Part shown: one piece after another, positions 7,212-44,586 of the stretch
Numbering within the stretch: position 1 is the first letter of the stretch
Layout of the letters: each line of letters begins with the position of its first letter
Origin: Ornithodoros turicata
Lineage: Eukaryota; Arthropoda; Arachnida; Ixodida; Argasidae
Assembly (NCBI RefSeq): GCF_037126465.1
Contig: NC_088202.1
Span: 29,310,213 to 29,374,212 of the forward strand
Length of the DNA: 64,000 nt
Reading direction: 5' to 3'
Translations under genes and position numbers: made by a program
The notes under the pieces: model-generated
Databases searched by the model: none
The model's input: the letters and a program-made list of their open reading frames with translations, nothing else
Told to the model about the DNA's origin: nothing

Positions 7212-7217
7212 CCGGAG
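7212..7217 (+). repeat. 6-bp target-site duplication CCGGAG, left
   Basis: CCGGAG lies directly outside the terminal inverted repeat (next bases AGTAGTAGGGCGC). The same six bases, in the same orientation, follow the other terminus at 44581-44586. The sequences beyond these hexamers are unrelated, so this is a direct repeat generated by insertion. Confidence 0.85.
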
Positions 7218-7377
7218 AGTAGTAGGGCGCTGTTACGCATACCGACGTCTTTTTTCTAATCCAAGATGGCGTATTCTAATCCAATTCTAAGCCAAAATTC
7301 AATTCTAAGCCAACACAATCCAATTCTAAGCCAACACAATCCACTTGTAATCCGACAGGAGCCAAATCCAAAGCCAT

Positions 7378-8200
7378 CTGATTGGCCGCCATTAGCTCCA
7401 CCCACTTCACCTTGATTGGTCCACGCCAAGCCTACTGATCATTGATTGGTCAATCGTAGTTCTGCTCCTTTATGTTAATTAGTTGGCTTGGCTCCACCCA
7501 CTTCACGGTGATTGGCGCATGCTAAGCCTACTGATCGTGGATTGGTCAATTGTAGCTCCACCCCTTTATGCTAATCACTTGGCTTCGCCCACTTCACGAT
7601 GATTGGCCCATGCCTGCTGATTGGTTCACCATAGCTCCGCCCCTTTATGCTAATTACTTGGCTCCACCCACTTCACGCTGATTGGCAGAGGCTGATCGCT
7701 GAGCTCTGCCCCTAATTAACCGGCTCCACTGATTGGTCCATTCTAAGCCCTCTGATTGGCCACTACTGATTGGCCAGCTGAACATGGCCTTCACCAGCGC
7801 CCTGGGCGTCGTTCTAGGCCTACTGAACATAGCCTGCACTACCGAGGCAGCGGCTTCACTGTGGCTCTATCTCATATGCCCACTCATATGCCCAAACTTA
7901 CCTCGTGGCGTGCAACTTTCCGCCCACTTCATGCTGATTGGTCCTACCAATCCAGACTTCTAATCCGGTCCACATAGCCTTCACTAGCGCAGCCGCAACT
8001 CCACTGTGGCTCTATCTCAGATATCTAAACTTACCTTTATACTAGGTCTGCCTACTTCATGCTGATTGGTCCATTCCAAGCCTACTGACTTCTAAGCCAA
8101 ACCACGCTATGCCTACTGATTGGCCCTTCAAACCGAAGCCTACCGATGGCCGACTCCGATTGGTCCACGATAAGCCTACTGAACAGTGATTGGCTAGCCT
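7378..8200 (+). promoter_or_regulatory. CCAAT/octamer/CACCC-box array near left terminus
   Basis: ATTGG (a CCAAT box on the other strand) occurs about 16 times between 7381 and 8192. It alternates with GCTCCACCCACTTCAC or CTCCGCCCC (CACCC/GC boxes), AAGCCTACTGAT, and octamer-like TATGCTAAT at 7567 and 7646 (TATGTTAAT at 7471). The first three or four units repeat with a spacing of roughly 80-100 bp. AAGATGGCG (YY1-like) lies just outside, near 7263. Motif identities rest on vertebrate and general eukaryotic consensus sites. Activity is inferred. Confidence 0.5.
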
Positions 8201-9860
8201 GAATTTGTTGGTACCAGGCAGCCGCTTCAGACAAGACACACGACAATTGTTGATTTCAAGCTTTATTTGGTACAACAGCCTCCTGGTCCAGCTGTGGGTT
8301 GGTTCAGCTGCATCAGAGAGATCCCGGTCATCTCTTGCGCTCGTTGGTCACTCAGCTCCCTCGGTAGATGCCATCTGGCTCATCTATCTGCAAGTGCTCA
8401 TTGGCCCATCTGACTACAAGCCTCTCATTGGTCACTTATGTGTAGAGCTCCCTAACAGACTAGAACTGCACTTCCACTGATCGCTAGACCCGACTGCTAC
8501 TCCCTCTAATCTCTACATGAGATAAAATAGGTTTAACTGTGAGATATTGGAACTTTTACCATAAGATAGGTTTAGCGAGGGCTGGTGGGCTCCAACTGCT
8601 ATCGGCCCATGCCTCCCTCCGCGGCTGCTCACTGGTTCTCACAATGAAACTTTTTCACATGCTCTGACGGCGCCAAAGAAGGTTCCCTAGACATACAACA
8701 GATGGCGCCGGTTGTATGCCCTCTTTGCAAAGATGGACAGCCGCGACGCGAGTGTTGATAATGTCCACTCTAACCGCATTGGTCATTCCTTTCTATCCGA
8801 CTGGTTCATACTTCTAGCAAGAGAGCCAGCATTAGAAGCCAAATCTGCTGCTGAACATTACAAAACATGAATAAAACGGCTTACATCAATATGTTCAGTG
8901 CCGCCATCTGAAGTCAGCCGCCTTCATGCTATCCATGCCCCTCATAGCCACGGTTGCCTCGCAGTGCTAACGGTAAATTAAAAAAAACGTTCAGGGTACG
9001 ATGAACACATCTTAAAACACTCTCTACCCATCTCTCCATAGAACACGAGTAAAGTGGGCTTAACCACGTTGTACGCATGATCATGGGGAAGCCCACTTCC
9101 GGGAACAAGCTTTCGTTTTTGTGATAGTGTGCTTTTGCACTTCAACATCAAAATTTAGTTCAGTGTTTATCAAGCAGAATGGAGAGGGAGGAACCTAAAT
9201 AATGCTATAGAGTGAAGCGCGTTCATTCTTAAAAGCTGTAGAACGGATTTTGTCGCAGATTGTGTGCTACAACAAAACAAAACAAAAAATGTTTCAATGT
9301 TTAATAAGCAGAACGAAAAAAAAAGCATCGTGATGCCAAGCAGTGAAACCCACTAGCTCCGCACGCGTTCGTACTAAAAAGCTGAGCAGGAAGACGAAAC
9401 ATGATCGAGAAATGATGCTGTGCAGAGAAGCTCGTTTTAGAGAAAAACGATTTCAATGTCGATTGAGCAAATCATCAAGAAACCCTGTAGAGCTGCACCT
9501 GCAAGGAAGCTTAGGATCGTTTTGTTTTTAGACGGTGTGCGTTCAACACAAGAAACTAATTAAATCAAGCAGAATGGCGAAGCATAGTAATGGTGAAGCT
9601 CAAGATTGTTTCTCTCACTGACGCTTCAACGCTTATTAAACAAAGTGATCGAGTAGACACATTAGTAGTAGTTGGTGCTGCGCAGTGAAACTCCGCACGT
9701 ACTCAATATTAAAAAGAAGACTCAACCCAAGCTGAGTAGCAAGAAACACTATTTCAGATTGGTTTCAGAGCTCTCACGGAGGTATTCTGTGCAAGCGTAT
9801 CCAGCGTATATTTCACGCGACACACCTAGCACGCGTTCCTTCAAAACAGTACGCAAGAGC
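8200..9860. other. outer arm, no gene recognised
   Basis: This part is highly similar to 41900-43550 inverted. It contains a GATGGCGCC pair near 8703 and a purine-rich stretch. A 96-codon frame at 8190-8480 is shared by both arms but carries no motif. Its conservation is explained by the arms being copies. Confidence 0.4.
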
Positions 9861-11020
9861 ACTATTAGACAGTAAGAAGTACCATTAGAAATATAAGTCC
9901 AGGGTGATCACACAGATTCAAAATGAACGAAGTTTATCACATTATAAGCAAGTTCACCTCAGAATAAATGTGTTCACTTTAAAAGTATCACAGTTACAAA
10001 TATGACAGGTTTTACACCACATAGATTCAACGCGCGTCACGAGCACCATACAGCACGCCATATCTGAAACGCGTGGAGAGCTCAGGCGATTTTAGCCCGC
10101 CCATGTCCGCCTATATTGCAATTTTTCACCTGAGAGGCATGCACAGACCGTTATCACGTAGCTATGCATACACACACACACAATACAATTTCGAATGCGT
10201 AATCTGCGTATGATAGCGACGCACGGGCTCAACATGCACCGATATAGACACATCAAACTATCGCGCACCTTCCAGGTTTACAAATCTCCATCACGCCGCA
10301 AACGTAGCCAGCGTATATTTCACGCGACACACCTCCGCGTTCGCACGAGCACTACTGAACAGCATGAAGCACCATTAGAAATATAAATTTAGGATGATCA
10401 CACAAAAACGCACTCAATCTTCGCGGACTCGACCCAAGCTGAGTTTGAAGAAACACAATTGCACATTGATCCCCTCGGAATATTCTGTTCAAACATAGCC
10501 AGCTCACGCGACACAGCTCGTATACGCAGAGCGCAGCTGGAAGCACCCTCAGAAATATAAGTTCAGGGCACAACGTCGCACTATGAACGAGTTCATCTCG
10601 AAAAAATGCGCTCACCTTCGCAGACGGGCACATAATTTCAAGAGCACCGTGCAGCAATATCTGAAACATGCGGCGCGTGGACAGCTCATGCGACTTTAGC
10701 CAGCCCGTATTTACGCATATTGCAGTTTTAGACTTCAACATAAGATATTAATTAAATCGAGCACAAAGCACAGTGATGCTATGTCGTGACTGATGCTCCT
10801 ATGCTTATTAAACAAATTGCTCAGTGCTATGCACGCACGTACTCAGCTCAAGCTGAGTATGAAGAAACACAATTTCATATTGCTCTCTCCCCGAACATCC
10901 TGTGCAGTCGCACCTTCGCGTTCCTTCTCTATACTGGAAGCACCAATATTAAAATGTTAAGTATCGACGCACTATGAACAAGTTCATCAAAAAAAAATTG
11001 GCTTACCTCATCACACCGGT
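9860..11020 (+). repeat. subterminal degenerate repeats, left arm
   Basis: A block of the form GAAGCACCATTAGAAATATAA, then GATGATCACAC or GCACTATGAACAAGTTCATC, then an AGCACCGTGCAGCAATATCTG-like block and CGCGTGGACAGCTCA, recurs near 9870, 10370, 10545 and 10935. Spacing varies from about 180 to 500 bp because units are partly deleted. No convincing gene runs through it. The array may be structural or part of replication or transcription control. Confidence 0.55.
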
Positions 11021-11774
11021 ATGACGTACGTAGATTCTTGTCGCGCGACGGGCTACAGCACGGTAGGGAAACACGGGCGCGTGGACAGCTCACACGATTT
11101 CAGCCTACCCGCGCACACCTCACAACATGCGCCGACACACCAAAATGTTGCGCACCTTCCGGGCACCCACGTGTCGACCACTTACCGTGCCAGCCGCACG
11201 GAAAACTAGATAGCCGAAACACAGGCGCGTAATATATCTCTCCGGTTGGGTCCATCTGTTTTATATCAATGCTCGCTCGTTTCCGCAAGGTTGCAAGTCC
11301 GAGAAATTGGGTCACCCTGAAGATGTGTTCGAGCCATCTGTTTTATATCAAAACGCACTTCCACCCGTCATGGCCAAACTGAGTACTCTGCGGCGGGCCC
11401 TAGCGGAAAAAAAATGTTGCGTCAAGGTGATGTAACGAGAAACTGGGTCACCTCGTAAATCATGTTTTCCGAGGCCGCGCGTATTAAAACCAAAAAGTAA
11501 GCAGTGATCACACCACGCTATGCGAAGAAAAAAATATCCCTAAGACCACATGTCACCACCTGCTCATTGCCGAAACAAGCACCAAAAACAAAGGGTTCGC
11601 TTATGCAGTTTCCAAGAAGTTCCTAATGTCCTTCGCGCGCGCGCATCGGGCCGTTCCTGCGTGATTGTGTAAACAAAATCGCACCACCATCCAAGGGCGC
11701 ATTTGAGTTCCATCCATCGGTCGACTCTGGGTCAAGCGCACGACGAGGAAAATGAGGAAAGTTCTCATTTTCAG

Positions 11775-11929
11775 TTCATTCGGTGTGCGTAGAAACTGAG
11801 AAGTCGTCTGTTTTCGAAAAGCTGGATAAACCCAGTGATGGGAGCATTGTTCCGAAGAACGAAAAGCTGGACGTGTTGGACTTACGCAAGGTCGACATGG
11901 GGAGCCGAACTCCTGATGGAAAGCGATAA
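11775..11929 (+). CDS. small lysine-rich protein exon, left arm
   Basis: A strong acceptor (GTTCTCATTTTCAG) at 11761-11774 opens a 50-codon frame with the charged segment ETEKSSVFEKLDKPSDG and then NEKLDVLDLRKVD, ending at TAA 11927. Upstream open sequence (about 11590-11740) may be the preceding exon. About 170 bp downstream is an AATAAA (12096-12101), and a lysine-rich block encoding HSKKK-stop lies between them in another frame, so a further short exon is likely. In the right arm the same exon is shifted by a 14-bp tandem duplication and split by the nested element. No family was recognised. Highly charged and probably soluble. Confidence 0.4.
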
Positions 11930-12169
11930 ACGCGTTTTAAGCGATTCACATATTAAGGGTTGCAAGAAATCCGTGAGTTACCGGATCTGAAACTGGAGAA
12001 GAGACTCATGGATGGATCGCCCGAAATCATCTTTACTCACTCGAAGAAAAAGTGACCAGCGAAAGTGCGCGCGTCTCATATGTAATCATCACTAAAATAA
12101 AAGTATTTCCTGTTTTTAAGGGGGGGGGAATTCTGTGTTTTGTGATGGAGAAGCTATATAGATAGGTGA

Positions 12170-12600
12170 TAGGGAGAAGGATTACATAGCACGTACTTAT
12201 CGACTAAGCGAGTATAGTTTGTGGAGAGGGCCACGCTATTTTAAAGCCATTTTATATCATATCGCAAACGTTCTGCGCGATCAAACAAGTCCGAGCATTA
12301 TGGAAAGAAGAAAACCGTTTCACGCACCGTGTGCGTTTCAGCGTGCTCAAACAAGTTGTGGCTATTAGTAAAAGAAGTAGTTTTGGGTTCCCAGGCGGGT
12401 TCTGCATGGTGTTTCCAGCGCATCAGGCGATGTTCTACAACAACGTAAATTATTCTGCGCGATCAAACAAGTCCCGCTCCCCTTTATACAAATGACGCGC
12501 GTGCCATATCATAACTTGTTTCAGCGTGCTCAAACAAGTTCTGGCTTTTGTGCGTTGTGGTGAGACGTGGGACTCGTATGATGGTGCAGATTTGTAAGAA
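12170..12600 (+). promoter_or_regulatory. promoter-like region with TCAAACAAGT iterons
   Basis: TCAAACAAGT occurs at 12281, 12347, 12463 and 12530, and the complement ACTTGTTT at 12513. The pair TTCTGCGCGATCAAACAAGT and CAGCGTGCTCAAACAAGTT is present twice, about 185 bp apart, so a module has been duplicated. TTTATACAAA at about 12483 could serve as a TATA box. The region up to AAGAAACACTGAAGA is homologous to 29500-29700 (opposite strand), which lies upstream of a different coding sequence. Confidence 0.5.
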
Positions 12601-12627
12601 ACACTGAAGAGATTCAAGGCACACACT

Positions 12628-13061
12628 ATGGAAATCGACAGCCGAATTAGAAAAGGTATTGCGATTTTATCCTCGCCGTCTAATTAAAATCACTATTTTC
12701 AGTAGGGCGAACGGTCCTCGATGTTTTGACGGCGTTTTTCGGATGGATTCCGGAAGGTGCAGTACCGCAGGGGCTCTCTGAAGCTTTCATCGGGAAAAGA
12801 TTCACCGCCATCGATAGGGTAGAAGATGCTGTGGACGAGATCCTACGAGTATACCACGAAATTGAGCTAGAAAAAGAAGATGCGAACCTATTCATGATAT
12901 CACGCTATCTCGGCGAATTCCTAAAGAGATACGGCTACAGAGACATCGCGGGCATAGATATTCTTCAAGCTCTCCATCTGCTGCACGTCTTAGTTTACCA
13001 CTGGAATGAATGCTGTCGTATCATGTACGAACCGGATGGCTGTCCCCCAAAGATCGAGTGA
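12628..13061 (+). CDS. two-exon small helical protein, left-arm paralogue
   Basis: An ATG at 12628 starts a 28-nt exon (MEIDSRIRK, donor AAAAG|GTATTG at 12655/12656). A 47-nt intron ends in CTATTTTCAG, and exon 2 runs 12703-13061 to a TGA, giving about 128 residues. The shift to a 3-bp later acceptor would keep the frame. AATAAA follows at 13088-13093. The protein is alpha-helical in look, acidic/basic mixed, with FFGWIPEG near the N-terminus and DILQALHLLHVLVYHWNE near the C-terminus. Both regions are conserved in the core gene at 28440-28810 (FFQGIPEQ; DILQALLLLRMLVYRWNQ), which argues for selection on protein sequence. It sits in a cassette absent from the right arm. No family was recognised. 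Confidence 0.6.
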
Positions 13062-13748
13062 AACTAAACTGTGTAATCCTCACGTAAAATAAAGCTCTTT
13101 GGTCCGCACAAAGGATTTTTGAATGCATGAACAGACGGTTTCGAACGTCCAGCCTACCTTATTCGACGCGTTTTTTGAAATAGCCATGCGGGCGTTTGAC
13201 ATCGCGTATGTTTGCAACCACACATGGAGTAACCCTAAAACAAAGTATGGGGAATAAGGTACTTTCGAAGCCTGATGTGCGAAAATACTATCCCTCTATA
13301 TCTGTAAATAGGCAACACGCTGTGCAATTCGAGCTCCCACCTCACACCATTTGGGATAGCACATCGACACAGTATGGTGTTTGATTGCAGAAGGGGTAAA
13401 TCGATTTCTTGCCCCCACCCTCTCTTCACAGGGGTGTACCCTGTTACCCACTCTTAATAATAAAACTTTTGAAATCCACGCTAAGAAATCCACCCTTCAA
13501 ATTCCAATCCTTTCAAATTCAAGCTGTCAAAATAAATCACAATGGGTCTATGCAGTCCAGTGTTAAGCATGGTTTTACGTGAGAAAATCAGTGTTTAAGA
13601 AGGTCACACTCCAGAATAACGAGTCTTTATGCAATTCTGTGTGGTATTCAGCATGTATCTCTCAATTATTCATTAATTTAATTAAGTTAGAGGCGTAAAT
13701 AACTACGCGTATGAATACTAGGAAAACAACGCTTCAGAGGTTCGGCCA

Positions 13749-14673
13749 GCTCTCCACAACTCCCCATAGAGCCCATAGTATAGCTAAATTCACACAACAC
13801 TGGGCACACGACCAATGAGAGTGCAGCGATTGCTTCCTCAATCCTCCAATCAGAAGTCTTTCCGTCCGGCTCGCAGCCCGACCGGTTCTGGCTGTTGCTG
13901 ACTTCTGCTTTCCATACTGGCCTGTGCCGGCTACCCCTCACCTCTAAGTCTACTAGCTTTCATGCACGTCGTAAAGTTATTCCGTGATTCCCAAACAACT
14001 GTCAAAAGTGTCGTAATAAACAAATTTATTTATACTGACACAATCGGCAGGTTGACACATATACATGCACTGAGCGTACTGAGTCCATTGCGTAGCGCTT
14101 CCTAGCACACTGGAACAAAGTTCAAACTTGCAAAATACGCATATCGACACAGCTTATTCCCAGCAACGAACAACTGTCACATACTTGCGCACAATCGCTT
14201 GATCCATCATGTCCTTGCCTGCTACACGTCAAACATAAAATGCTGCTTCGTGAATGGTATTTTCTTGTCACCGCTATGCAGATCTGACTGCGCTCGAACA
14301 TGTTCATCGAGCCAGAATTCACGACAACACTTCAGTTTGAAATCCGATTGGCTCTTCGTAGACCGATGCTTGTGGCGAGAAACAGTACAACACGATCAAA
14401 GGCACCATAATACACGGATAAAACGGCGATCGGCGAACGCACTTGCCTCCCAGCGAAAGACACCGCCAACGCGGCGCCCACCGTTCAGATTTCAAATGAA
14501 ACCGCTGACAGGAGAACGCAGCACGCAGGCGAGGAAGCGCGAAGTGCCGTTTTCAAATTCTGGCAACCAATCCGGACACGCTTGTGGCGTCCGACCAATA
14601 GAGAGGCACGGATTGCTTCGTGCGCAGTAACACGCATTTTGATACAGATTTTGCGAGAGCTGTGGGGGGCTGG
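13749..14673. repeat. segment inverted between arms, left copy
   Basis: This block has the same + strand orientation as 34101-35038, although everything around it is inverted between the arms, so it has flipped in one arm. Its ends share CAGCTCTC in inverted orientation. CCAAT boxes lie near both ends (GACCAATGAGAG about 13810, CTCCAATCAG about 13846, GATTGGCTC about 14346, AACCAATCCGG about 14567, GACCAATAGAG about 14592). No convincing gene inside. Confidence 0.7.
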
Positions 14674-14817
14674 TTCGGCCGTCCGGCTACCATTGGGGAC
14701 GAGGCTATTAGAGAAAATGGAGTAACGACGGAGCTGTATGGTGTTGCGGGATGTGCTGCATAAAAAGGATAATCACTGCAAGCTCTAATAAAGCATATGT
14801 TTCTTCTGCCGATTTCG

Positions 14818-15126
14818 TCAGGTATTTTTCAGACGTGTAACGACTTGGTGTGCTAACACGCGCGTGTAACTTATGAAGGAATTCATTGGTGAAGTGACAT
14901 TGATGCAGTCGTAGCTGTTTTGGACAGGCAATCTGGTAGCGAAAAATGTCCACGATAGGCAACATATAAAACGTACCGCAAAACTGCTGTGTCGACCATT
15001 TGTCACGACGGTAATCACGTACATCACGGTAAACATCATGGAAACGTCTCTTGCTTTCCTCGGCCTCGGCCTACGAAGAACCGCTAATGATATGTTTGAT
15101 AAGCGCCGCGAAAAGTGGTTTAGCAA
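14818..15126 (-). CDS. arm ORF of unknown function (left copy)
   Basis: About 100 codons, with counterpart 33780-34094 (+) in the right arm. Shared segments include VTNGRHSSFAVRF and VTSPMNSF. Beyond the stop, the right-arm frame continues as KSAEETYALLELAVIILFMQ, which could be a hydrophobic tail. Amino-acid changes between arms are frequent, so selection cannot be claimed. It may be non-coding. Confidence 0.2.
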   Translation of the reverse strand: MLNHFSRRLSNISLAVLRRPRPRKARDVSMMFTVMYVITVVTNGRHSSFAVRFICCLSWTFFATRLPVQNSYDCINVTSPMNSFISYTRVLAHQVVTRLKNT

Positions 15127-15202
15127 GGTATAACTGTGCCGGGAACGCCGTCACATGAGGGATGTGTTTAATTAAATCACAGTGAAAGATAGCAGAGGAA
15201 TG

Positions 15203-15625
15203 TTACTGGTCATGTAGAAAGCAGATCTCGTTCACCAACATATCAATGGATTGTTTAAATAGTGTTCCTGTCAATGGACAACTGACGTTTTCGTCCCGTC
15301 TATACTGAGCAATGTTGGCCCAGAGCTTGGTTTCTGGATGCCACAAAACACTTCTCGCCAATGTGGTGCACTGTGACTCAATGGGGCATTTACAGCTGAG
15401 TGTCATTACCACATGAGACAAGTTGACTCTCTCAGGTGCTGTCACTGCAGTGCTGTAGACGATCCAGAGTATATTCTTTGTCATTGCCCACACTACTGAG
15501 CTTTCCAAACTGCCATTTTGAGATCTCAATATCTCTGCCCCTCTCTCTAAAATTTCTTGGCCTATAGCTAAATAGAGCCCACGAATGCCTGCTCTCGAAG
15601 CTCTTTTGGCAATTTTGGACTCCAT
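15203..15625 (-). CDS. arm ORF of about 140 codons (left copy)
   Basis: Starts MESKIAKRA and contains two Cys in LSCKCPIESQC and the segment SVLWHPETKLWANIAQYRR. The right-arm counterpart 33214-33579 keeps the frame with an 11-codon deletion and an earlier end. No family was recognised. Many replacement changes between the copies make coding uncertain. Confidence 0.25.
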   Translation of the reverse strand: MESKIAKRASRAGIRGLYLAIGQEILERGAEILRSQNGSLESSVVWAMTKNILWIVYSTAVTAPERVNLSHVVMTLSCKCPIESQCTTLARSVLWHPETKLWANIAQYRRDENVSCPLTGTLFKQSIDMLVNEICFLHDQ

Positions 15626-16278
15626 GGGACATTATTTCCTTCCTCACACCACAAGCAGCTATGGGGTAGAGTACTGCCCCAGGCAATGAAAGTCTCTGTC
15701 CATCTCAAAATAAAGTTGATGAACAGCATCTGCAACTTCTGTGAGGTGGTTTAAACCACTCTTATAACTACATGATACAGACAAAATACAGAAACCGACA
15801 CTTCCTCAGGTAGGACCTAAGGAAGCGTGGACCTCCATGCGAAACCTTGTACAAATTAAACTTAAACAAAAATCTTCAGTGTCGGTTTCTGTATTTATGC
15901 GATCTACAGGACTTGACTCCCCTCTTCGTATATCAACCACATGATATGTGTAACCTAGGAATGCTGGTATGTGGGTGGAGTGACTAGTTTACCACAGTAC
16001 CACAAATAGGAACACAAATGGCTGATAAATCTGCTACAGAATCTGGGCCAAGACGATGAGCTCTTGGAATCATCACAGTTTTCAATACCATGCAGAGGAA
16101 GAGAGAGTAGAGTACCCTCAAATTTTGTACTACTTTTTCTGAATTACTTGTAATTATGCAGCAGCTACATAGGCAGCAGTTAAAATGCTACCCAGAATTG
16201 CCAAAACTTCATGCTGGCACTCAATTCTTTTTACAAACTTTGGTTTGTGATGTGACGAATGTTTCGGTGACTTCCATA

Positions 16279-16446
16279 GGCCCGGTTTCACCAACTCTGG
16301 TTAACTGAATCAATATCAAGGGTTGCCAATCCTCGAACAGACATTTAACAGACAGTTCTTTTTTTCCATCGGTGATGTGGTGAAGCAGATAGTTTAATGA
16401 CCGTTCATCTTAGTTCAGATGCTGAAAAGTTTGGTGAAACTGGGTC
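16279..16446. mobile_element. small MITE, GGCCCGGTTTCACCAA termini
   Basis: GGCCCGGTTTCACCAACT at 16279 pairs with the complement of the right end (GACCCAGTTTCACCAAAC). The length is about 168 bp with no coding capacity. The target duplication is short or unclear. Confidence 0.55.
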
Positions 16447-19445
16447 ATTATGTAGCCTTTGTGTTCTGGTGCTGTGCAATTGTTTTTCGAGGGATTCAAA
16501 CTACAAAAAAAGGTTAGTAATAAAAAAAATTCTTGGCATACCTACCTACCTACATATATGTCCTGGACAGCATGTAAGAAACTCAACAGAATATAAATGT
16601 CATCATGACATTGGTAGACAGACTGATACCGAAACAAATCGGAAGGGGAGGGCTGGGTTCCACGAATGGGCACTTGTTCACTGCCTCCTCTTGAAAGAAA
16701 AGTAGGACCGAAAGTCGCGTGCTCTGTCAAAGACCACCATAATTCCCTCAAGACCGTGCCTTTTTGATGCAAACTCGTCCCCCCTAGCTTTGAGCGTAGC
16801 TCAACTGTACCAAATTGGTGGCACTGTTGAACAGTATGATGTCATTTGTTTTTATGATGAACAGTATGATCTCATTTGTACCGTTTCTAAGGCACTTTGT
16901 ACAAGGGTTTTGTATGCCAGCAGTGTACTGTCTGCGAAAGGTAGTTTCCGTGTCCACTTCAAGAAGACAATTTTTTTAAGAGGCTTAGAGGATGCGTAAC
17001 TAATGTGTGATTCCCCCTAAATATCAGAAGAGAGGTGCATACTTAAATACCTGAAACCCTCAACTCAATTAATTGTAGGATCAAAATTACGTGGGAATAT
17101 ATTGAGGTTTGTCTCATTCACAAAAGACCTCATTGCACACTCTGCAAAGTGCATCGGTAGTTGCCATGGCCTACATCAATCATAGATACTGCAAACCACT
17201 CATTGAGCATAGTCAGTCCGCGGTACGCAAAGTGAAAAGCGTCATTGTCCATTGTGAACATGGCCATGCAACAGTGCTTGCGGCTTCGCATTTCTCACTA
17301 GTTTCTTTCATCACTTTGTTATGAGATGACTAATGCTTTGCCAATTCAACACTTGGAACTTTGGAACAACTTTGCAAAGGATATGTACTCGTATGCACTT
17401 CCTTTAATCGCTTCAGGAGTATTTCTTCCGTAACATATCTCAGCAAAGCAGTATGTCATGTAGGTAACACGATTTTGGCACAGTATTTGCTTGATATATC
17501 CAACAAGCAGAGGTATCAAATCTTTGTGCCAAAATGGTGTGCCACGTGTCCGTGTAAAGACGAGCCGCTTAGATGGAATAGGTATAGCATATTGACGTTG
17601 AATGCAAGAAGTTAATGTTTGACAACATATTTGTCATGGGTTAAATAGAGCAGTATATCATACACATCAGAAGAATGCCAACACTTCAGTGCTTTACCTT
17701 TACCTGTTATTCCAATGTTTACTCTCCCTTCTATTGGAATTATGTATTTCAGAATCATTTTTGTATTACTGAATTTTAATTTGGCAATCGTTTCACATGT
17801 CTTGTGATAGACAGGTTAGCAATGCAAGCAGGGTTTATGTGCCTCTCACAACCTGCATCTTTATGCAAAAGTACTCCAAAAGCCGGGAGACGACATAACT
17901 AGACAAAAAAGTAGAGACGAGTTCCTAGTTACGAGTTCCGAGACTCTAGAAGCTACCTGTGTCCCCATCTTTGTTCCCTCTTGTTATGTTAAGTTGGAGT
18001 TCTCTACTTTTTCGTCTGCATTTTTATGTATGAGGGTGTTTTTGTGACAAGAGGGCAAGGGTGCCGGCAACATGGCACATGTTCACAAAAATGCAGAACC
18101 AGAGACACACACACACAAAAAAGTATAGCATAACACAGTCCCAATCATTTTGTCGTGTCCTTTTTGATGTGTCGTCTGTTCTACAGTTTTTTTTTCGTGT
18201 GTAGTTTCTGTATTTTAAGCCCAGGAGCAGTTGCTGTAGAGGATGCTGAGAACATGTGAAGCATACATTTTCTCATTCTCACATTATGCTGTAAGCAGTG
18301 TGAAATACAACCCAAAAGGAATTTAATGAGAGACAACTTGTCATCATGATCAGTGTGGGAACATTGCAAAGGAAAAATAATTCTGAACCATAATGGATTC
18401 CTATCCTATTTAATGGTACAGTATCAGATGAAAGTAATCCAAATAATATTAAAGAAGTAACCGTGCAAATTATCAGTCAAACAGTGAAGCTGGCTGCAGT
18501 ACACTACAATGTGTCACATGTAACAATATCAGTGTTTCCAAAAGTGACACATAAACCTTAGGGAGGCCGCAATAGTCAAAGCGGTGGTTACACCAGTTGG
18601 CGAAAAGAAAAAGCAGATGAAGTGAACGCAATATGCGACAAAACCAAGGAAACTATCACGCTACAACTGCAATATATTGAAGTTGTTTTTAAAAAATAGA
18701 AGTTAGTTTCACCGCACAGATATCAGCTGTCGAACACACAGCCATCCCGAAAACTATGCCCATCTTCGTTGATGCACCCACGAATCCACAGGAAGACCGC
18801 CGAGGCTTTCCCAGTCGGATAAGTATCTGTACCTTGAACTGTGAACAGTTTGGTGTACACTCCAGAAAACGAGAACAGCTGATTGCCGATTTCATGGGCG
18901 CGGCCATGTGAGCCGACAAGGACAGTTCAACAGAGGAGCAATTTGAACGCGAATGTGGCGCAAGTGGTAGGCGCAACAATTTGCACTTCAAACGACGTAA
19001 AGTGACCATAAACTAAGCAGCGAGGATGCGTGCTTGCTCATTTGTTATTATTTGGGCCTGTAATCCACATCACGGTTCAGAAAAGCTGCTAAAAATGCGG
19101 ATGACTGGCACAAGAAAAACAAGTTTGCAATGTTGTTTGACCCGTTGCGGTTCAAGCGAATATATCTTTTTTGTGCTTCCTTCCTCTTTTTTCTTTCTTG
19201 TTTTTCTTTTTCTTTTATTGTTTTTTACTGTTTTCGGTTCGTTCCGGAGCCCTAGCTTGGAAAGCTGCTCCTGTTTAGTTTCGGTATAAATCGGAATGTG
19301 GGGGCAGGGGGAACAGTCCACCGTTCCTCGAGTTTTCACGGTGCTGGCTCTGCCCCCCCCCTCCCCCGAATTTTCCCTCCGAGGACCTCTTTGAAAATGC
19401 CGTACTTCTCAATCTCCAACTCCATGTCCAGCAGTGCTCTCCTTC

Positions 19446-33056: not shown

Positions 33057-33213
33057 TTATATAACATGTAGTTATAAGAGTGGTTTAAACCACCTCGCAG
33101 AAGTTGCAGATGTTGTTCATCAACTTTATTTCGAGATGGACAGGGAGTTTCATTGCCTGGGGCGATACTCTACCCCATAGCTGCTTGTCGTGTGAGGAAG
33201 GAAATAATGTCCC

Positions 33214-34094: not shown

Positions 34095-34100
34095 CCTCGT

Positions 34101-35038
34101 CAGCTCTCACCAACTCCCCATAGAGCCCATAGTATAGGTAAATTCACACAACACTGGGCACTCGACCAATGAGAATGTAGCGATTGCTCCCTCAATCCTC
34201 CAATCAGAAGTCTTTCGGTCCGGCTCGCAGCCCGACCGGTTCTGGCTGTTGTTGACTTCTGCTTTCCATACTGGCCTGCACCGGCTAACCCTGACCTCTA
34301 AGTCTACTAGCTTTTATGCACACCGTAAAGTTATTCCGTGATTCCCAAACAACTGTGAAAAGTGTCGTAATGATAGAGAAATTTATTTGAGTCATTATAC
34401 TGACACAATGGGCAGGTTGACGCATATACATGCACTGAGCATACAGAGTCCATTGCGTAGCGCTTTCTAGCAGACTGGAACAAAGTTCAAAGTTGCAAAA
34501 CACGCATATCGACACAGCGTATTCCCAGCAACGAACAACTATCACATACTTGCGCACAATCTCTTGATCATCATATCCTTGCCTGCTACACGTCAAACAT
34601 AAAATGCTGCTGCTTCATGAATCCTATTTTCTTGTCACCGCTATGCAGAGCTGACGCTCTCGAACATGTTCATCGAGCCAGAATTCACGACAACACTTCA
34701 GTTTGAAATCCAATTGGCTGTTCGTAGACTGATGCTTGTGTCGAGAAACATTACAACACGATCAAAGACACCATAATACACGGATAAGACGGTGAACGGC
34801 GAACGCACTTGCCTCCCATCGAAAGACACCGCCGACCCGGCGTCCACCGTTCAAATTTCAAATGAAACCGCCGAGGGAGTACGCAGCACGCAGGCGAGGA
34901 AGCGCGAATTGCGGTTTTCAAATTCCGTCAACCAATCCGGACACGCTTGTGGCGTCCGACGAATAGAGAGGCACGGATTGCTCCGTGCGCAGTAACACGC
35001 ATTTTGATACAGATTTTGCGAGAGCTGTGGGGGGCTGG
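34101..35038. repeat. segment inverted between arms, right copy
   Basis: Partner of 13749-14673. The flanking word CTACCAT..GGACGAGG lies on one side of the segment here and on the opposite side in the left arm, as expected if the inversion breakpoints fell within short inverted repeats next to the segment. Confidence 0.7.
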
Positions 35039-35472
35039 CCTCGTCCTCGATGGTAGCCGAACCGCTGAAGCGTTGTTTTCCTAGTATTCATACGCATGGT
35101 TATTTACGCCTGTAACTCAATTAAATTGATGAATAATTATGAGATACATGCTGAATACGACACAGAATTGTATAAAGACTCGTTATTCTGGAGTGTGACC
35201 CTCTTAAACACTGATTTTCTCACGTAAAATCATGCTTAACACTGGACTGCATGGACCCATTGTGATTTATTTTGACAGCTTGAATTTCAAAGGATTGGAA
35301 TTTGAAGGGTGGATTTCTTAGCATGGATTTCAAAAGTTTTATTATTAAGAGTGGGTAACAGGGTACACCCGTTCAGTGTATTATTTGTTACCTTGTACGC
35401 CACTCCTTCTATGACATTTTTAATGTCAGAAGTATTCATAACAAATAAATACATGCTAGAGTCTTAGCTATA

Positions 35473-36254
35473 CAGGGTGTTTCAGTTAAATCCCCGGGCT
35501 AAATAATTCGCGAACCGGTGCACCAATCGAATAACTTTCTTTTTTACAAGTATCTGTCCAATACCGCCTACAAGATGCGCACCGCGTGAATGAGCGGGAG
35601 GCGCTCATTATTTAAATAAAAATGCAAATGAATTTCGTAAAAAAGCGTAACTTCTAAAGCAGGGCACTGTCGGTATTAAAATGGGTACTACCCCTTTTGG
35701 GACCTTCAGTGGACACCTTTCAGAGAAAAATCTGCCACCGAAGCGGGTCATTTGTTGCAGTAATTAATTGGTTCCGGTTTACGTATTTTTGTCGCGGCTG
35801 GTCGCGGCGAAGCGCAAAAAGACGCTCTTTCACTCCCTTATCCATCAATGAATTACGTCCTTACACCAATGAATTACACCCATGAATTACACCAATGAAT
35901 TACGTCCTTTTGCGCTTCGCCGCGACCAGCCGCGACAAAAATACGTAAACCGAAACCAATTAATTACTGCAACAAATAACCCGCTTCGGTGGCAGATTTT
36001 TCTCTGAAAGGTGTCCACTGAAGGTTCCAAAAGGGGTAGTACCCATTTTAATACCGACAGCGCCCTGCTTTAGAAGTTACGCTTTTTTACGAAACTCATT
36101 TGCATTTTTATTTAAATAATGAGCGCCTCCCGCTCATTCACGCGGTGCGCATCTTGTAGGCGGTATTGGACAGATACTTGTAAAAAAGAAAGTTATTCGA
36201 TTGGTGCACCGGTTCGCGAATTATTTAGCCCGGGGATTTAACTGAAACACCCTG
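35473..36254. mobile_element. 782-bp foldback element in the right arm only
   Basis: CAGGGTGTTTCAGTTAAATC at 35473 pairs with its exact complement ending at 36254. Pairing extends about 350 bp inward, with only a short loop around 35860-35910 (repeats of ATGAATTACACC). It is absent from the left arm at the corresponding place. No coding capacity. It shares the CAGGGTGTTT end with 3863-4635. Confidence 0.8.
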
Positions 36255-37264
36255 AATAGCTCCTTATCCATCACACCGCACGGCATTTTTTTCTCTTAAA
36301 ACAGGAAATACTTTTATTTTACTGATGATTACATATGAGACGCGCGCACTTTCGATGGTCACTTTTTCTTCGAGTGAGTAAAGATGATTTGGGGCGATTC
36401 ATCCATGAGTCTCTTCTCCAGTTTCAGGGATTTCTTGCCACTCTTAATCTGTGAATCGCTTAAAACGCGTTTATCGCTTTCCATCAGGAGTTCACCTCCG
36501 GGTAGTTTCATTTTAAATCGAACAACGTGTGAAAGTCGTATTTTTTAATTCGCCCAGAAAAAAATATATGTTAGAGGACAGCTCAAACGACGCAAATCGC
36601 GCCACGTGCGACGCTCGTGCGTATAGTAGTTTCCGCGTAGGAGAGGGGGAAAGTCTGAGGCTGCTTGATCACGCTTTCTTCTGAACCGACTTTGACGGGA
36701 TCAAGCACCGCTAATTTTATCTCTAGGAACTGGAGGTTTTTTGTGATTTGAGGCTACACCATAGACATTGTCGACAGTCACCCACAGAACTCTGAGAGCC
36801 ACAGATTTTCTGTTAAAAAATGCCAAACTTGGCGTAAACGTTCAAAAAGGCCAAACTTTGTTACCAATTTGCTTCATGACAGAACTTCTGAGAACATCGA
36901 GCTTAGTGCCATTCGATAGGGCATTGAAAGGGCATTCGTGCTGTATAGAGCTCATTTTTCTCATCCCAGTTATTTCTGTGTTATTAACTTGAGAATCGCA
37001 CATAGTAGGCGAAAATTGCCAATGTTGCATCTCAGTTTTCTCAAAAATGCCATCTTCGATTTCCTTGATTATTTTTGAAAAGGTGGCGTCATGTCTCTAC
37101 TTTAGACGCCTAGTGAGACCATATTTTATTTTTGCCTGAGAGACGCGCAGCGATTTTTTTTTGTCAGGCAGGGTGCACGAGGCTGCGGCCTTGCGCGCCC
37201 CACCCACGAGCGCGCGACTTTCAACCTCTTCTTTGCTACAGGTGTCCCGCTGACGGAGAAATCA

Positions 37265-37483
37265 ATGACCACACTGCGTGAGCTTGTTGTAGTGTCCCCA
37301 GAGCATCACTTTACGTTTACCCAATGGCCTTCCAGTTCCGTCAGGCTCATTCAAACCGTGGGAGAGTACATGAGTTGCCTGTGCGCCCTTGACGAGAAGC
37401 CCCAGTTCGACGAACATACCGAGAAAGCAGTGAGAAGAAACGAAGCGCTTCGTAGAGATCTTTATCCACTGGTAACATCTTAG
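37265..37483 (+). CDS. 72-residue ORF in the nested element
   Basis: ATG ACC ACA to TAG at 37481-37483, preceded by a good acceptor (CTTTGCTACAG, 37231-37241), after which the frame is open (PLTEKS before the Met). Features: HHFTFTQW, VRLIQTVGEYMSCLCALDEK, and a basic/acidic tail EKAVRRNEALRRDLYPLV. The inverted copy at 38815-39060 has a duplication of about 50 bp within LRELVVV that breaks the frame. Differences in the rest are few and mild (V/M, E/D, E/D). Possible C-terminal exon of an element protein; family not recognised. Confidence 0.35.
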   Translation: MTTLRELVVVSPEHHFTFTQWPSSSVRLIQTVGEYMSCLCALDEKPQFDEHTEKAVRRNEALRRDLYPLVTS

Positions 37484-38024
37484 CTTTTGTTTCAGGTTGC
37501 CACCAGTCCCCCAGGAAGTGTGAAAGTCACATTCTTTTCATTGGTAAAAGAACGAAAAACGGAAGTTTCGAACAACGTAAAATGTGCCCATTGCGAGATC
37601 CCTGCAGGTGGTGGCTGCCACCATTAAATTAGCATCATCCGATAGCTTTACACATGTCCTTTCACATGATATAAAGTGAATGGGTTCAAGCGCATGGATG
37701 CCAGAAGGACTACTGAAGACCACACCGAGGGTTTAATGTACCTACGGCTACCGGAAACGAGGGATTTTAGTTGTGCGTTGTTCTGTCGGAAATTTTGATT
37801 CCCACGGTGACACTGACACATCTCGGTGAGGGCGGACGTGTTATACTTGAGAGCAGCAACTGTCATCACAGCGGTCTTACGGGTTTTGTACCACTCGTCG
37901 TGGTTCCGAAATAACGCTACGGAGCATAAAACTAATTAAAGAGAGCGTGCACACCTTCGGAACTATCACTTATTGCGCCCAAGTTAAGAGGCGACTGCAA
38001 CCACGCGACCACAAATTTGTATTC

Positions 38025-38303
38025 TCAGGTGTTGTAACTTTCTGTCCCCTCTGGCCGTAGTTCTGCCTTCTTAATATTAACTCGCACAACAGCCTCATAG
38101 CGTGCGTATGTGCATTGCCTCAAGCACATGTGCGAGAGAATAGTGAATATGCGCACGTGCGTATACGCACACGTCGTGCGTGCGACTCCCATGAAAGTAC
38201 GTATTAGCAAGTTCAGGTCGCCCACGAAAGTACTGCCCTGCGTCTCCGAAGGAAAAAATAAACATACGTACCATAAGTCCAAAAGAAGTACATAACGCAA
38301 CAT
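38025..38303 (-). CDS. spacer ORF of the nested element, doubtful
   Basis: A 92-codon frame starting with a hydrophobic run (MLRYVLLLDLWYVCLFF) that could be a signal peptide or membrane segment. It is the only longer frame in the unique spacer. No motif, partner copy or splice context supports it. Confidence 0.15.
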   Translation of the reverse strand: MLRYVLLLDLWYVCLFFPSETQGSTFVGDLNLLIRTFMGVARTTCAYTHVRIFTILSHMCLRQCTYARYEAVVRVNIKKAELRPEGTESYNT

Positions 38304-38814
38304 CTGGGCATTAAATTACAAAGCAAAGACTACGAAGCAAAACGCGCTCGTAAACATACGAAGAGCGCCTTTGTGTGGAAAAATCGCTCCGCGGAAAGGT
38401 AGCCCTACGTCTCAATCAAAAAGAGAAAAGGTACTTTACCAGCAGCGCAAAGTACCGGCATAGTTCTGCTCCTGTGGAATAAATCGTGAAAAATATTCCG
38501 GCTTTTTAGAAATAATTAAGATCGAACATGCAAAATTTTCGCGTACCATTCGTGGTTTTGCGATACTAGGCGGACAAAGAAGGCGCTTGAACCCATTCAC
38601 TTTATATCATGTGAAAGGACATGTGTAAAGCTATCGGATGATGCTAATTTAATGGTGGCAGCCACCACCTGCAGGGATCTCGCAATGGGCACATTTTACG
38701 TTGTTCGAAACTTCCGTTTTTCGTTCTTTTACCAATGAAAAGAATGTGCCTTTCACACTGCCTGAGGGACTGGCGGCAACCTGAAACAAAAGCTAAGATG
38801 TTACCAATGGATAA

Positions 38815-39060
38815 AGATCTCTACGAAGCGCTTCGTTTCTTCTCACTGCTTTGTCGGTATGTTCGTCGAACTGGGGCTTCTCGTCAAGGGCGCACAGGCA
38901 ACTCATGTAGTCTCCCATGGTTTGAATGAGCCTGACGGAACTGAGAGACCATTGGGTAAACGTAAAGTGATGCTCTGGGGACACTACAACAAGCCTCAGT
39001 TGTCTCGCGACGTAAACACCCAATTATTATTACTACAACAAGCTCACGCAGTGTGGTCAT
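38815..39060 (-). pseudogene. frame-broken copy of the nested-element ORF
   Basis: Inverted copy of 37265-37483. An insert of about 50 bp beginning TAATAATAATTGGGTGTT and duplicating CTTGTTGTAG interrupts the frame after LRELVVV. The remainder is open to the same stop. Confidence 0.5.
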
Positions 39061-40719
39061 TGATTTCTCCGTCAACGGGAAACATGTAGCAAAGAAGAGG
39101 TTGAAGGTCGCGTGCTCGTGGGTGGGGCGCGCAAAGCCGCAGCCTCGTGCACCCTGCCTGACAAAAAAAGTCGGTGCGCGTCCCTCAGGCAAAAATAAAA
39201 GATTGTCTCACTTGGCGTTTAAGGTAGAGACATGACGCCACCTTTTGAAAAATAATCAAGGAAATCGAAGATGGCATTTTTGAGAAAATTGAGATGCAAC
39301 ATTGGCAATTTTCGCCTACCATGTGTGATTCTCAAGCTAATAACACAGAAACAACTGGGCCGAGAAAAATGAATTCTATACAGCACGAAAGCACTTTCAA
39401 TGTCCTATCGAATGGCACTAAGCTCGATCTTCTCAGACGTTCGGTCATGAAGAAAATTGTTAACAAAGTTTGGCCTTTTTGAACGTTTACGCCAAGTTTG
39501 GCGTTTTTTAACAGAAAATCTGTGGCTCTCAGAGTTCTGTGGGTGACTGTCGACAATGTCTATGGTGTAGCCTATAATCACAAAAAACATCCAGTTCCTA
39601 GAGATAAAATTAGCGGTGCTAGATCCCGTCAAAGTCGGTCCAGAAGAAAGCGTGCTCAAGCAGCCTCAGACTTTCCCCCTCTCATACGCGGCAACTACTC
39701 CACGCACGAGCGTCGCACGTGGCGCGATTTGCGTCGTTTGAACTGTCCTCAAACATTATTTTTTTCTGGACGAATTAAAAAATACGACCTTCACACGTTG
39801 TTCGATTTAAAATGAAACTACCCCTCCCCGTGTCGACCTTGCGTAAGTCCAACACGTCCAACTTTTCGTTCTCCGGAACAATGCTCCCATCACCCGTTTT
39901 AGCCAGCTTTTCGAAAACAGACGACTTCTACGCACACCGAATTCAGTTTCTACGCACACCGAATGAACTGAAAATGAGAACTTTCCTCGTCTTCCCCGTT
40001 GCGCGCTTCGGTCGGAACTCAAATGCGCCCTTGGAGGGTGGCGCGATTTTGTTTACACAATCACGCAGGAACGGCCCGATGCGCGCGCGAAGGACATTTG
40101 GAACTTCTTGGAAACTGCATAAGCGAACCCTTTGTTTTTGGTGCTTGTTTCGGCAATGAGCAGGTGGTGACATGGGCTCATAGGGATATTTTTTTCTTCG
40201 CATAGCGTGGTGTGATCACTGCTTACTTTTTGGTTGTAATACGCGCGGCCTCGGAAAACATGATTTACGAGGTGACCCAGTTTCTCGGAGAAAGCCTATT
40301 TACATCACGTTGACGGAACATTTTTTCCGACAGGGTCCGCCATGACGGGTAGAAGTGCGTTTTGATATAAAACAGATGGCTCGAACACATCTTCAAGGTG
40401 ACTTTCCAATTTCTCGGACTTGCGACCTTGCGGAAACGAGCGAGCATTGATATAAAACAGATGGTCCCAACCGGAGAGGTATATTACGCGCCTATTCGGC
40501 TATCTCGTTTTTCGTGCGGCTGGCACGGTAAGTGGTCGACATGTGGGTGCCTGGAAGGTGCGCAACATTTCGGCGCATGTTAAGCCTGTGTGCGCGGGCA
40601 GGCTGAAATCGTGTGAGCTGTCCACGCGCCCGTGTTTCCCTACCCTGCTGTAGCGCGTCGCGAAACAAGAATCTACGTGCGTCATACCGGTGTGATGAGG
40701 TAAGCCCATTTTTTTATGA

Positions 40720-41900
40720 GATGAACTTGTTCATAATGCGATGCCGTGTGATTATCCTAAATTTATGTTTCTAATGGTGCTTCCAGTGGTGCTCTGCGTG
40801 GGAGGTGGGTTGCGTGCGCCGGCTATGTTTGCACGTAATGTTCTGGGAGAGCAATGTGAAATTGTGTGTCTTCATACTCAGCTTGTGTTCAGGGTTCTTT
40901 TTAACATTGAGTACGTGCGAAGCTTCAGTGCATAGCATTGTTTTATAAGCGTTGGAGCGTCAGTGAGAGCCTTATCACATAGCATCACTGTGCTCTATCA
41001 TTCTGCTTGATTTAGTTAATTTCTTATGTTAAACGCACACTGTGAAAAAACCGCAATATACGCGGACATGGGCAGGCTAAAGTCGCGCAAGCTGCCCGCG
41101 CGCCGTCGGAAATTCGTATTTCTGATATTGCTGCATGGTGCTCGTGAATCTATGTACCCGTCTGCGAAGGTGAGCACATTTTTTTTCCCGATATGAACTT
41201 GTACATAAAGCGACCATCCTAATATTTGTAATGGTGCTTCCAGTGGTGCTCTGCGTGCGAGGTGGGTTGCATGCTCTGGCTATATTTGTGCTACGTAATG
41301 TTCTGGGAGAGCAATGTGAAATTGTGTTTCTTTAAACTCAGCTTGGGTCGAGTCCGCGAAGATTGAGTGCGTTTTTGTGTGATCATCCTAAATTTATATT
41401 TCTAATGGTGCTTCATACTGTTCAGTAGTGCTCGTGCGAACGCGGAGGTGTGTCGCGTGAAATATACGCTGGCTACGTTTGCGGCGTGATGCAGATTTGT
41501 AAACCTGGAAGGTGCGCGATAGTTTGATGTGTCTATATCGGCGCATGTTGAGCCCGTGCGTCGCGATCATACGCAGATTACGCATTCAAAATTGTATTGT
41601 GTGTGTGTGTATACATAGCTACGTGATAACGGTGTGTGCATGCCTCTCAGGTGAAAAATGGGCGGGCTAAAATCGCGTGAGCTGTCCACGCGTTTCAGAT
41701 ATTGCGTGCTGTATGGTGCTCGTGACGCGCGGTGAATCTATGTGGTGTAAAACCTGTCATATTTGTAACTGTGATACTTTTAAAGTGAACACATTTATTC
41801 TGAGGTGCACTTGCTTATAATGTGATGAACTTCGTTCATTTTGAATCTGTGTGATCACCCTGGACTTATATCTCTAATAGTACTTCTTACTGTCTAATAT
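40720..41900 (-). repeat. subterminal degenerate repeats, right arm
   Basis: Inverted counterpart of the left array. TAATGGTGCTTC-type blocks lie near 40775, 41232, 41405 and 41880 (last one variant). The same order of deleted and intact units as on the left indicates that the array existed before the arms were copied. Confidence 0.55.
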
Positions 41901-43529
41901 TGCTCTTGCGTACTGTTTTGAAGGAACGCGTGCTAGGTGTGTCGCGTGAAATATACGCTGGATACGCTTGCACAGAATACCTCCGTGAGAGCTCTGAAAC
42001 CAATCTGAAATGGTGTTTCTTGCTACTCAGCTTGGGTTGAGTCTTCTTTTTAATATTGAGTACGTGCGAACTTTCACTGCGCAGCACCAACCACTATGTG
42101 TCTACTCGATCACTTTGTTTAATAAGCGTTGGAGCGTCAGTGAGAGAAACAATCTTGAGCTTCACCATTACTATGCTTCGCCATTCTGCTTGATTTAATT
42201 AGTTTCTTGTGTTGAACGCACACCGTCTAAAAACAAACGATCCTAAGCTTCCTTGCAGGTGCAGCTCTACAGGGTTTCTTGATGATCTGCTCAATCGACA
42301 TTGAAATCGTTTTTCTCTAAAACGAGCTTCTCTGCACAGCATCATTTCTCAATCACGTTTCGTCTTCCTGCTGAGCTTTTTAGTACGAACGTGTGCAGAA
42401 CTAGTGGGTTTCACTGCTTGGCATCACGATGCTTTTTTTTTTCGTTCTGCTTATTCAACATTGAAACATTTTTTGTTTTGTTTTGTTGAAGCACACTATC
42501 TGCGACAAAATCCGTTCTTCAGCTTTTAAGAATGAACGCGCTTCACTCTATAGCATTATTTAGGTTCCTCCCTCTCCATTCTGCTTGACAAACACTGAAC
42601 TAAATTTTGATGTTGAAGTGCAAAAGCACACTATCACAAAAACGAAAGCTTGTTCCCAGAAGTGGGCTTCCCCCTGATCATGCATACAACGTGGTTAAGC
42701 CCACTTTACTCGTGTTCTATGGAGAGATGGGTAGAGAGTGTTTTAAGATGTGTTCATCGTACCCTGAACGTTTTTTTTTAATTTACCGTTAGCACCGCGA
42801 GGCAACCGTGGCTATGAGGGGCATGGATAGCATGAAGGCGGCTGATTTCAGATGGCGGCACTGAACATATTGATGTAAGCCGTTTTATTCATGTTTTGTA
42901 ATGTTCAGCAGCAGATTTGGCTTCTAATGCTGGCTCTCTTGCTAGAAGTATGAACCAGTCGGATAAAAAGGAATGACCAATGCGGTTAGAGTGGACATTA
43001 TCAACACTCGCGTCGCGGCTGTCCATCTTTGCAAAGAGGGCATACAACCGGCGCCATCTGTTGTATGTGTAGGGAACCTTCTTTGGCGCCGTCAGAGCAT
43101 GTGAAAAAGTTTCATTGTGAGAACCAGTGAGCAGCCGCGGATGGAGGCATGGGTCGATAGCAGTTGGAGCCCACCAGCCCTCGCTAAACCTATCTTATGG
43201 TAAAAGTTCCAATATCCCACAGTTAAACCTATGTTATCTCATGTAGAGATTAGAGGGAGTAGCAGTCGGGTCTAGCGATCAGTGGAAGTGCAGTTCTAGC
43301 CTGTTAGGGAGCTCTACACATAAGTGACCAATGAGAGGCTTGTAGTCAGATGGGCCAAAGAGCACTTGCAGATAGACGAGCCAGAGGGCATCTACCGAGG
43401 GAGCTGAGTGACCAACGAGCGCAAGAGATGCAGCTGAACCAACCCACAGCTGGACCAGGAGGCTGTTGTACCAAATAAAGGTTGAAATCAATAATTGTCG
43501 TGTGTCTTGTCTGAAGCGGCTGCCTGGTC

Positions 43530-44460
43530 CCGACAAATTCAGGCTAGCCAATCACTGTTCAGTAGGCTTATCGTGGACCAACCGGAGCCAGCCATCGGTA
43601 GGCTTCGGTTTGAAGGGCCAGTCAGTAGGCTTAGCGTGGTTTGGCTTAGAAGTCAGTAGGCTTGGAATGGACCAATCAGCATGAAGTAGGCAGACCTAGT
43701 ATAAATGTAAGTTTAGATATCTGAGATAGAGCCACAGTGGAGTTGCGGCTGCGCTAGTGAAGGCTATGTTCAGCGGGCCGGGCCAATCTGTAGCGGCCAA
43801 TCAGAGCGCTGGGAGATTGATCAGTAGGCTTAGCGTGGACCGGATTAGAAGTCTGGATCGGTAGGACCAATCAGCATGAAATGGGTGGCAAGTTGCACGC
43901 CACGAGGTAAGTTTGGGCATATGAGATAGAGCCGCAGTGAAGCCGCTGCCTCGCTAGTGCAGGCTATGTTCAGTAGGTCTAGAACGACGGCCAGGGCGCT
44001 GGTGAAGGCTATGTTCAGCTGGCCAATCAGTGGGCTTAGAATGGGCCAATCGGTAGTGGCCAATCAGAGGGCTTAGAATGGACCAATCAGTGGAGCCGGT
44101 TAATTAGGGGCAGAGCTCAGTGATCAGCCTCTGCCAATCAGTGTGAAGTGGGTGGAGCCAAGTAATTAGCATAAAGGGGCGGAGCTATGGTGAACCAATC
44201 AGCAGGCATGGGCCAATCATCGTGAAGTGGGCAAAGCCAAGTGATTAGCATAAAGGGGTGGAGCTACGATTGACCAATCCACGATCAGTAGGCTTAGCAT
44301 GCGCCAATCACCGTGAAGTGGGCGGAGCCAAGCCAACTAATTAACATAAAGGAGCAGAACTACGATTGACCAATCAATGATCAGTAGGCTGGGCGTGGAC
44401 CAATCAAGGTGAAGTGGGTGGAGCTAATGGCGTCCAATCAGATGGCCTTGGATTTGGCTT
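43530..44460 (-). promoter_or_regulatory. CCAAT/octamer/CACCC-box array near right terminus
   Basis: This is the inverted copy of the left array: CCAATCA repeated many times, GTGGGTGGAGCC boxes, and ATTAGCATA octamer-like words near 44165 and 44245. The module order is preserved, with small changes. Confidence 0.5.
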
Positions 44461-44580
44461 GTGTCGCATTACAAGTGGATTGTGTTGGCTTAGAATTGGA
44501 TTTTGGCTTAGAATTGGATTAGAATACGCCATCTTGGACTAGAAAAAGGACATCGTTGTGCGTAACAGCGCCCTACTACT

Positions 44581-44586
44581 CCGGAG
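44581..44586 (+). repeat. 6-bp target-site duplication CCGGAG, right
   Basis: This is the partner of 7212-7217. It directly follows the right terminus, which ends GCGCCCTACTACT. Confidence 0.85.

Follow-up and report, generated by a model that had tools for sequence, protein, structure and literature searches.

A multicopy palindrome in the genome of the tick Ornithodoros turicata, with Maverick-type ends and no recognised Maverick gene

A 64,000-nucleotide stretch of the genome of the argasid tick Ornithodoros turicata (C2:29310213-29374212, on contig NC_088202.1; hereafter ‘the window’, whose own numbering is used unless a contig is named) contains a structure of 37 kb that had been described, from its sequence, as a giant palindromic mobile element. 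It raises the question of what kind of element could be built mostly of its own inverted repeats, and by what means such an element moves. Searches over the 1.07-Gb genome (379 contigs) point to an answer that we consider probable by a modest degree: the structure is one member, enlarged by later insertions, of a multicopy palindrome family that has Maverick-type ends and 6-bp target-site duplications, holds no recognisable Maverick gene, and is likely replicated and inserted in trans by the Mavericks of the same genome, the last step following from the presence of Maverick-type ends where no Maverick gene was recognised.

The element spans 7218-44580, between two copies of the hexamer CCGGAG (7212-7217 and 44581-44586), and both termini open with AGTAGTAGGGCGCTGTTACG, inverted relative to each other; in these respects the preliminary description was accurate. 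It had also reported near-continuous pairing of the arms over 37 kb around a unique core of 1.4 kb, and this did not hold. Self-comparison of the window gave an arm identity of ~89-90% in the outer 4.7 kb, with the order of pairing broken further in, and comparison with a relative at C1:71.33 Mb assigned ~24.7 kb of the structure to four later insertions (I1 to I4). In that relative, the sequence of window positions 12862-13431 joins that of 28411-29602 directly, overlapping by one base more than the 7-bp duplication; the right arm passes from 29751 to 36268 uninterrupted. Because the relative lacks both I1 and I2, these are separate later insertions of one other element; lying in opposite orientation, they gave the arms a false look of continuity. 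A single 37-kb palindrome is thus ruled out by a relative without the middle insertions. Stripped of its insertions the element measures 12,699 bp, near the size of other family members, and consists of arms of 5,402 and 5,419 bp around a core of 1,878 bp. Its inverted repeats are, as first claimed, exceptionally long, but they make up 85% of 12.7 kb rather than more than 90% of 37 kb.

Read from left to right, the left arm (7218-12619, + strand), which begins with the shared terminus, is followed by the left part of the original core (12620-13431, +), contiguous with 28411-29602 in the C1:71.33 Mb copy. Insertion I1 (13432-28411, +) has the 7-bp target-site duplication TTCACAG, one copy of which forms the first seven bases of the right part of the core (28412-29484, +). 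The innermost piece of the right arm (29485-29824, -) is separated from the rest by I2 (29825-35370, -; 7-bp duplication GTTCAGT), by I4 (35466-36261), a 796-bp palindrome with 93% self-pairing that is absent from the C1:71.33 Mb copy, and by I3 (36500-39823), a 3.3-kb foldback with 1.2-kb arms (91% identical) and the 4-bp duplication CTCC, whose site is empty in the same copy. The outer piece of the right arm (39824-44580, -) closes the element with the inverted terminus. I1 carries 9.4 kb (16066-25513) missing from I2, including reverse-transcriptase pieces. Both also contain a 0.93-kb element with inverted ends (13747-14673 in I1, 34102-35038 in I2) at slightly different sites; its absolute orientation is the same in the two, which implies that it was inserted or flipped separately.

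The palindrome family is multicopy, and apparently it has been active recently. The search for further copies proposed at the outset gave 97 matches with the first kilobase of the element (40 of 1,599 candidates scored) and 43 with the end of a young copy (40 of 1,491 scored). Once three short second pieces among the latter are set aside, 40 ends remain, those of the element that supplied the query among them; 34 of these formed 17 inward-facing pairs, 11.3-14.8 kb apart, and six were unpaired. Both ends were examined for ten of the 17 pairs, nine of which show an exact 6-bp target-site duplication and one a match at 5/6 bases, while a 7-bp match occurs in 0/10. Three older relatives, taken from the paired ends of the first-kilobase search, are palindromes themselves, with exact duplications at C1:75.87 and C1:71.33 Mb and a 5/6 match at C3:48.2 Mb. 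This brings the number of other copies read at both ends to 13, with an exact 6-bp duplication in 11 and 5/6 bases in two. The element begins AGTAGTA at 19/20 ends of the ten young copies, at 6/6 ends of the three older ones and at both ends in the window. Copies ending at different places would have spoken against a discrete element; instead an AGTAGTA-type motif marks the limits of all 13, and each has its own 6-bp duplication, exact or matching at 5/6 bases, as expected of the mobile element with Maverick-like ends originally proposed. This uniformity is qualified by one further young copy (C3:44.317-44.330 Mb), whose left terminus is rearranged and which was excluded from the duplication count. 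That copy is a 12.5-kb palindrome with arms of ~6.2 kb each, ~99.9% identical (one mismatch and two single-base gaps between arms in the outer 3.57 kb), and its inverted match runs inward to a poorly paired centre of ~0.14 kb, so that the arms are nearly the whole copy.

Genome assembly is known to be error-prone at long palindromes, and a head-to-head join of two alleles or two strands could in principle produce such a structure. With 6-bp duplications of their own at 13 other sites (11 of them exact), ~10% divergence between the arms in the window and many loci of the same architecture, an artefact of this kind is so improbable that we reject it.

The link to Mavericks begins with the ends. 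In published work on vertebrate Mavericks (PMC8097293), the most frequent termini are 5'-(AGT)2//(ACT)2-3' with 6-bp duplications, (AG)3//(CT)3 is an alternative terminus motif, and intact elements measure 12.7-24.6 kb with inverted repeats of 46-1447 bp. Set beside those figures, the tick palindrome has the same (AGT)2//(ACT)2 ends, the same length of duplication and, at 12.7 kb, a total size within the range; it differs in its arms, which at 5.4 to ~6.2 kb far exceed such repeats. The exact 20-nt terminus occurs at three places in the genome, namely the two ends of the window element and a Maverick-like locus at C4:45.19 Mb, where the end sequence is 79% alike over ~610 bp. Inside this locus, within 5.2 kb, lies an open reading frame (ORF) matching an integrase core (PF00665, E 1.3e-6, 29.0 bits against a cut-off of 32.6), together with a fragment of polymerase B whose match to PF03175 (E 0.011) also falls short of the cut-off; two other pieces gave no Pfam match. 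The other pieces contain what we read as polymerase motifs, so that the polymerase assignment is in part one by motif. The integrase piece also matches an insert in the C1:75.87 Mb copy (29% identity, E 1e-4). One polymerase-like ORF compared by sequence with the PDB, and the C4 pieces compared with PHROGs and phage records, brought nothing useful. Elsewhere, another family end (L009:2067-3329) lies beside an ORF that matches AAA weakly (E 0.011), which may mark a second Maverick and its ATPase.

Several observations weigh against this link. The C4:45.19 Mb locus shares only its end, not its interior, with the palindromes, and the proposed connection runs through this one degraded locus, with Pfam matches that fall under the curated cut-offs. 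No polymerase, integrase or transposase turned up when the window element and one young copy were scanned against Pfam in all six frames, and seven Maverick-like pieces tested against the window and the young copy gave no match. The genome does hold candidate machinery, in that PF03175, the family to which Maverick polymerases belong, scored above cut-off at 91/91 scored places (of 1,253 candidates), with open frames of up to 1,282 amino acids, and at none in 14 control genomes; these loci are candidate Mavericks by their family and not by their ends, PF03175 also covering other viral and organellar polymerases. The lack of recognised mobility genes agrees with the preliminary description. In the scanned copies, the polymerase, integrase, ATPase, protease and capsid genes of Mavericks were not found and two orphan genes stand in their place; the palindromes are therefore not Mavericks by gene content, yet they carry Maverick ends.

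A palindrome with a Maverick end at either side could also be a defective snap-back derivative, in which one end of a Maverick was duplicated in inverted orientation. Viruses that use protein-primed replication give rise to defective genomes of palindromic form, and such an origin would explain the two like ends, the palindromic form, the loss of genes and the presence of the same end on the Maverick-like locus; these genomes, like those of hairpin-replicating viruses, resemble the tick element as inverted dimers that would need a helper. We nevertheless think this origin unlikely, as the arm interiors are unlike the C4 Maverick-like locus and the two orphan genes are conserved rather than decaying; the tick element, unlike defective genomes, sits at very many chromosomal places with conserved genes of its own. 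A literature search for palindromic defective virus genomes gave none.

The two genes, A and B, are held in the core of the window element together with A', a paralogue of A. A' spans 125 amino acids (12684-13061, +). The frame of A is open from stop to stop at 28397-28810 (+), its similarity to A' beginning near 28435, where it is preceded by a putative splice-acceptor-like TTTTCAG. B lies on the opposite strand (29067-29444, -), where 125 amino acids are open in this copy, with a stop near the N-terminus; a frame of 137 amino acids is the commonest among the other copies listed. The layout of the window, with A', A and B once each in the core, recurs at C1:71.33 Mb and differs from that of the young copies, in which each arm contains B and a shortened A. 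Matches to A' were scored at 150 places out of 441 candidates. B was found at the best 150 of 2,987 candidate places, with no stop inside the match in 128/150, although a listing of best-scoring places favours intact copies; among the 150, the 32 close pairs of B include 30 in convergent orientation, of which nine show a spacing of exactly 2,148 bp.

Substitution rates indicate purifying selection on both A and B. Non-synonymous (dN) and synonymous (dS) divergence between A and A' are 0.31 and 1.12 (dN/dS 0.27), and dN/dS among B copies ranged from 0.06 to 0.59 in 25 listed pairs with >3 differences (eight sequences; the motif missed L051, and L053, L055 and L057 were excluded as mates). Neither A nor B gave anything below E 0.05 in Pfam or PHROGs; in a protein collection A had no significant match and B a single one (P0001, 51% identity); and the C4 integrase ORF, like A and B, had no significant match in IMG/VR. 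Structure models were unusable for fold searches (mean predicted local distance difference test score, pLDDT, of 43.6 for B and 51.0 for A'), and Rfam and transfer RNA scans of the window were empty. A and B thus appear to be conserved orphan genes of ~100-137 amino acids with no detectable enzyme family; their conservation in so many copies may mean that they help with packaging, replication or escape from silencing.

These genes also figure in another view, that the palindrome is an independent mobile element or virus whose own machinery is encoded by A and B and whose ends have converged on those of Mavericks. Purifying selection and the high proportion of stop-free B matches favour it, as does another palindrome, at ~C4:45.154-45.168 Mb, in which each arm contains a B-like ORF (28% identity; E 3e-7 and 7e-7). 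Against it stand the shortness of both proteins and their lack of a detectable enzyme family, and an identical 20-nt end at a Maverick-like locus would be hard to reach by convergence; we judge this view quite improbable.

How the arms are kept alike may bear on the manner of transposition. When ~1.1 kb of both arms was aligned in three young elements, eight of the variants that distinguish one element from the other two were present on both arms of that element and five on one arm only, the eight including deletions of 10, 26 and 8 bp. Arm pieces of 160 bp were then compared in 13 elements (ten from convergent B pairs and the three young ones): nine have identical arms, three differ by 1-2 and one, at C3:34.5 Mb, differs strongly; presence or absence of the 10-bp sequence agrees between arms in 12/12 elements with both arms covered. 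From these patterns we infer that the arms are homogenised during transposition, most simply via a folded single strand, conversion on the chromosome being a further possible route. The effect does not last indefinitely after insertion, for the arms in the window have drifted by ~10%.

The same data set limits on that inference. Only in 4/13 elements is an arm's mate strictly its nearest sequence, eight being inseparable from other elements; the arm test discriminates in those four alone because the young elements are so alike. In an end-distance test of 16 elements (50/52 loci used, two having been lost to a filter on match start and length), the two ends were strictly nearest in four, tied in six and not nearest in six. 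The clearly different arms at C3:34.5 Mb do not fit, gene conversion could likewise carry variants from arm to arm once an element has been inserted, and neither a hairpin nor replication nor transposition was observed.

Gene conversion is also part of another alternative, a classical foldback DNA transposon that moves by cut-and-paste through an unidentified transposase while its arms are equalised on the chromosome. Long inverted arms that fill most of the element (85% here, and nearly all of the young copy) are the hallmark of foldback elements such as Drosophila FB, Galileo, Tetris and Tm1; the foldback-like insertions I3 and I4 lie in the same window, and conversion between arms would also place variants on both. 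Target-site duplications in foldback elements are 9 bp in FB and 7 bp in Galileo, compared with 6 bp here. The duplications and (AGT)2 ends fit Mavericks instead, with the same end found at a locus that has integrase and polymerase pieces, and the sharing of variants between both arms in young elements is a further difference from foldbacks. The drift of the window arms to ~90% identity indicates that chromosomal conversion does not keep arms equal for good. A foldback transposon is, in our estimation, an unlikely explanation. As to the P-element, Mutator and hAT transposases of full-length foldback elements, the copies scanned, the window element and one young copy out of a large family, yielded none.

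Mobilisation in trans by Mavericks, the reading preferred here, suggests a sequence of steps by which palindromes of this kind could be copied and their arms made alike at each transposition. Protein-primed polymerase B would copy the element from its (AGT)2 ends; the displaced single strand would fold on itself during copying, giving a hairpin of ~6 kb; repair of mismatches and loops in the hairpin, or self-primed copying of one half, would equalise the arms in each new copy; and a Maverick integrase would insert the product with a 6-bp duplication, after which the arms would drift apart, as they appear to have done in the window. A more specific form of this proposal, that the mobile genome is the full-length palindrome, with A and B of its own and with ends and enzymes taken from Mavericks, and that at each transposition it becomes a single-stranded hairpin in which one arm templates the other, is put forward tentatively, as a serious possibility that falls somewhat short of being probable. 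We know of no direct observation of the replication intermediate of such elements.

No precedent for a palindrome that bears Maverick ends but lacks Maverick genes was found in the literature searched, mostly at index level. If mobilisation by Mavericks is correct, the palindrome would be a satellite of these virus-like elements in which the ends alone suffice to carry unrelated cargo, and Maverick machinery would act in trans in an animal-like genome. The signature of arm copying would preserve, in the sequence, a trace of the replication intermediate, predicting a hairpin form that could be searched for, and the process would explain how very long inverted repeats spread through a genome.

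The presence of a B-like gene in a second, otherwise different palindrome suggests, as far as sequence similarity can indicate, a wider group of such elements; the matches in that palindrome lie at L005:4676-4960 (+) and L006:1659-1931 (-), with a shorter third at L004:9469-9570. A further palindrome at L007:690-10000 (C4:45.1757-45.185 Mb) has arms that are ~99-100% identical and is apparently very young. Outside the element, the window contains, at 50107-53032, open frames that read by eye like a broken Ty3/gypsy-type retroelement, and two serpin pieces on the reverse strand, one at 57554-57910 (-) matching PF00079 (E 9.3e-10) and the other, recognised by eye, at 59713-60027 (-).

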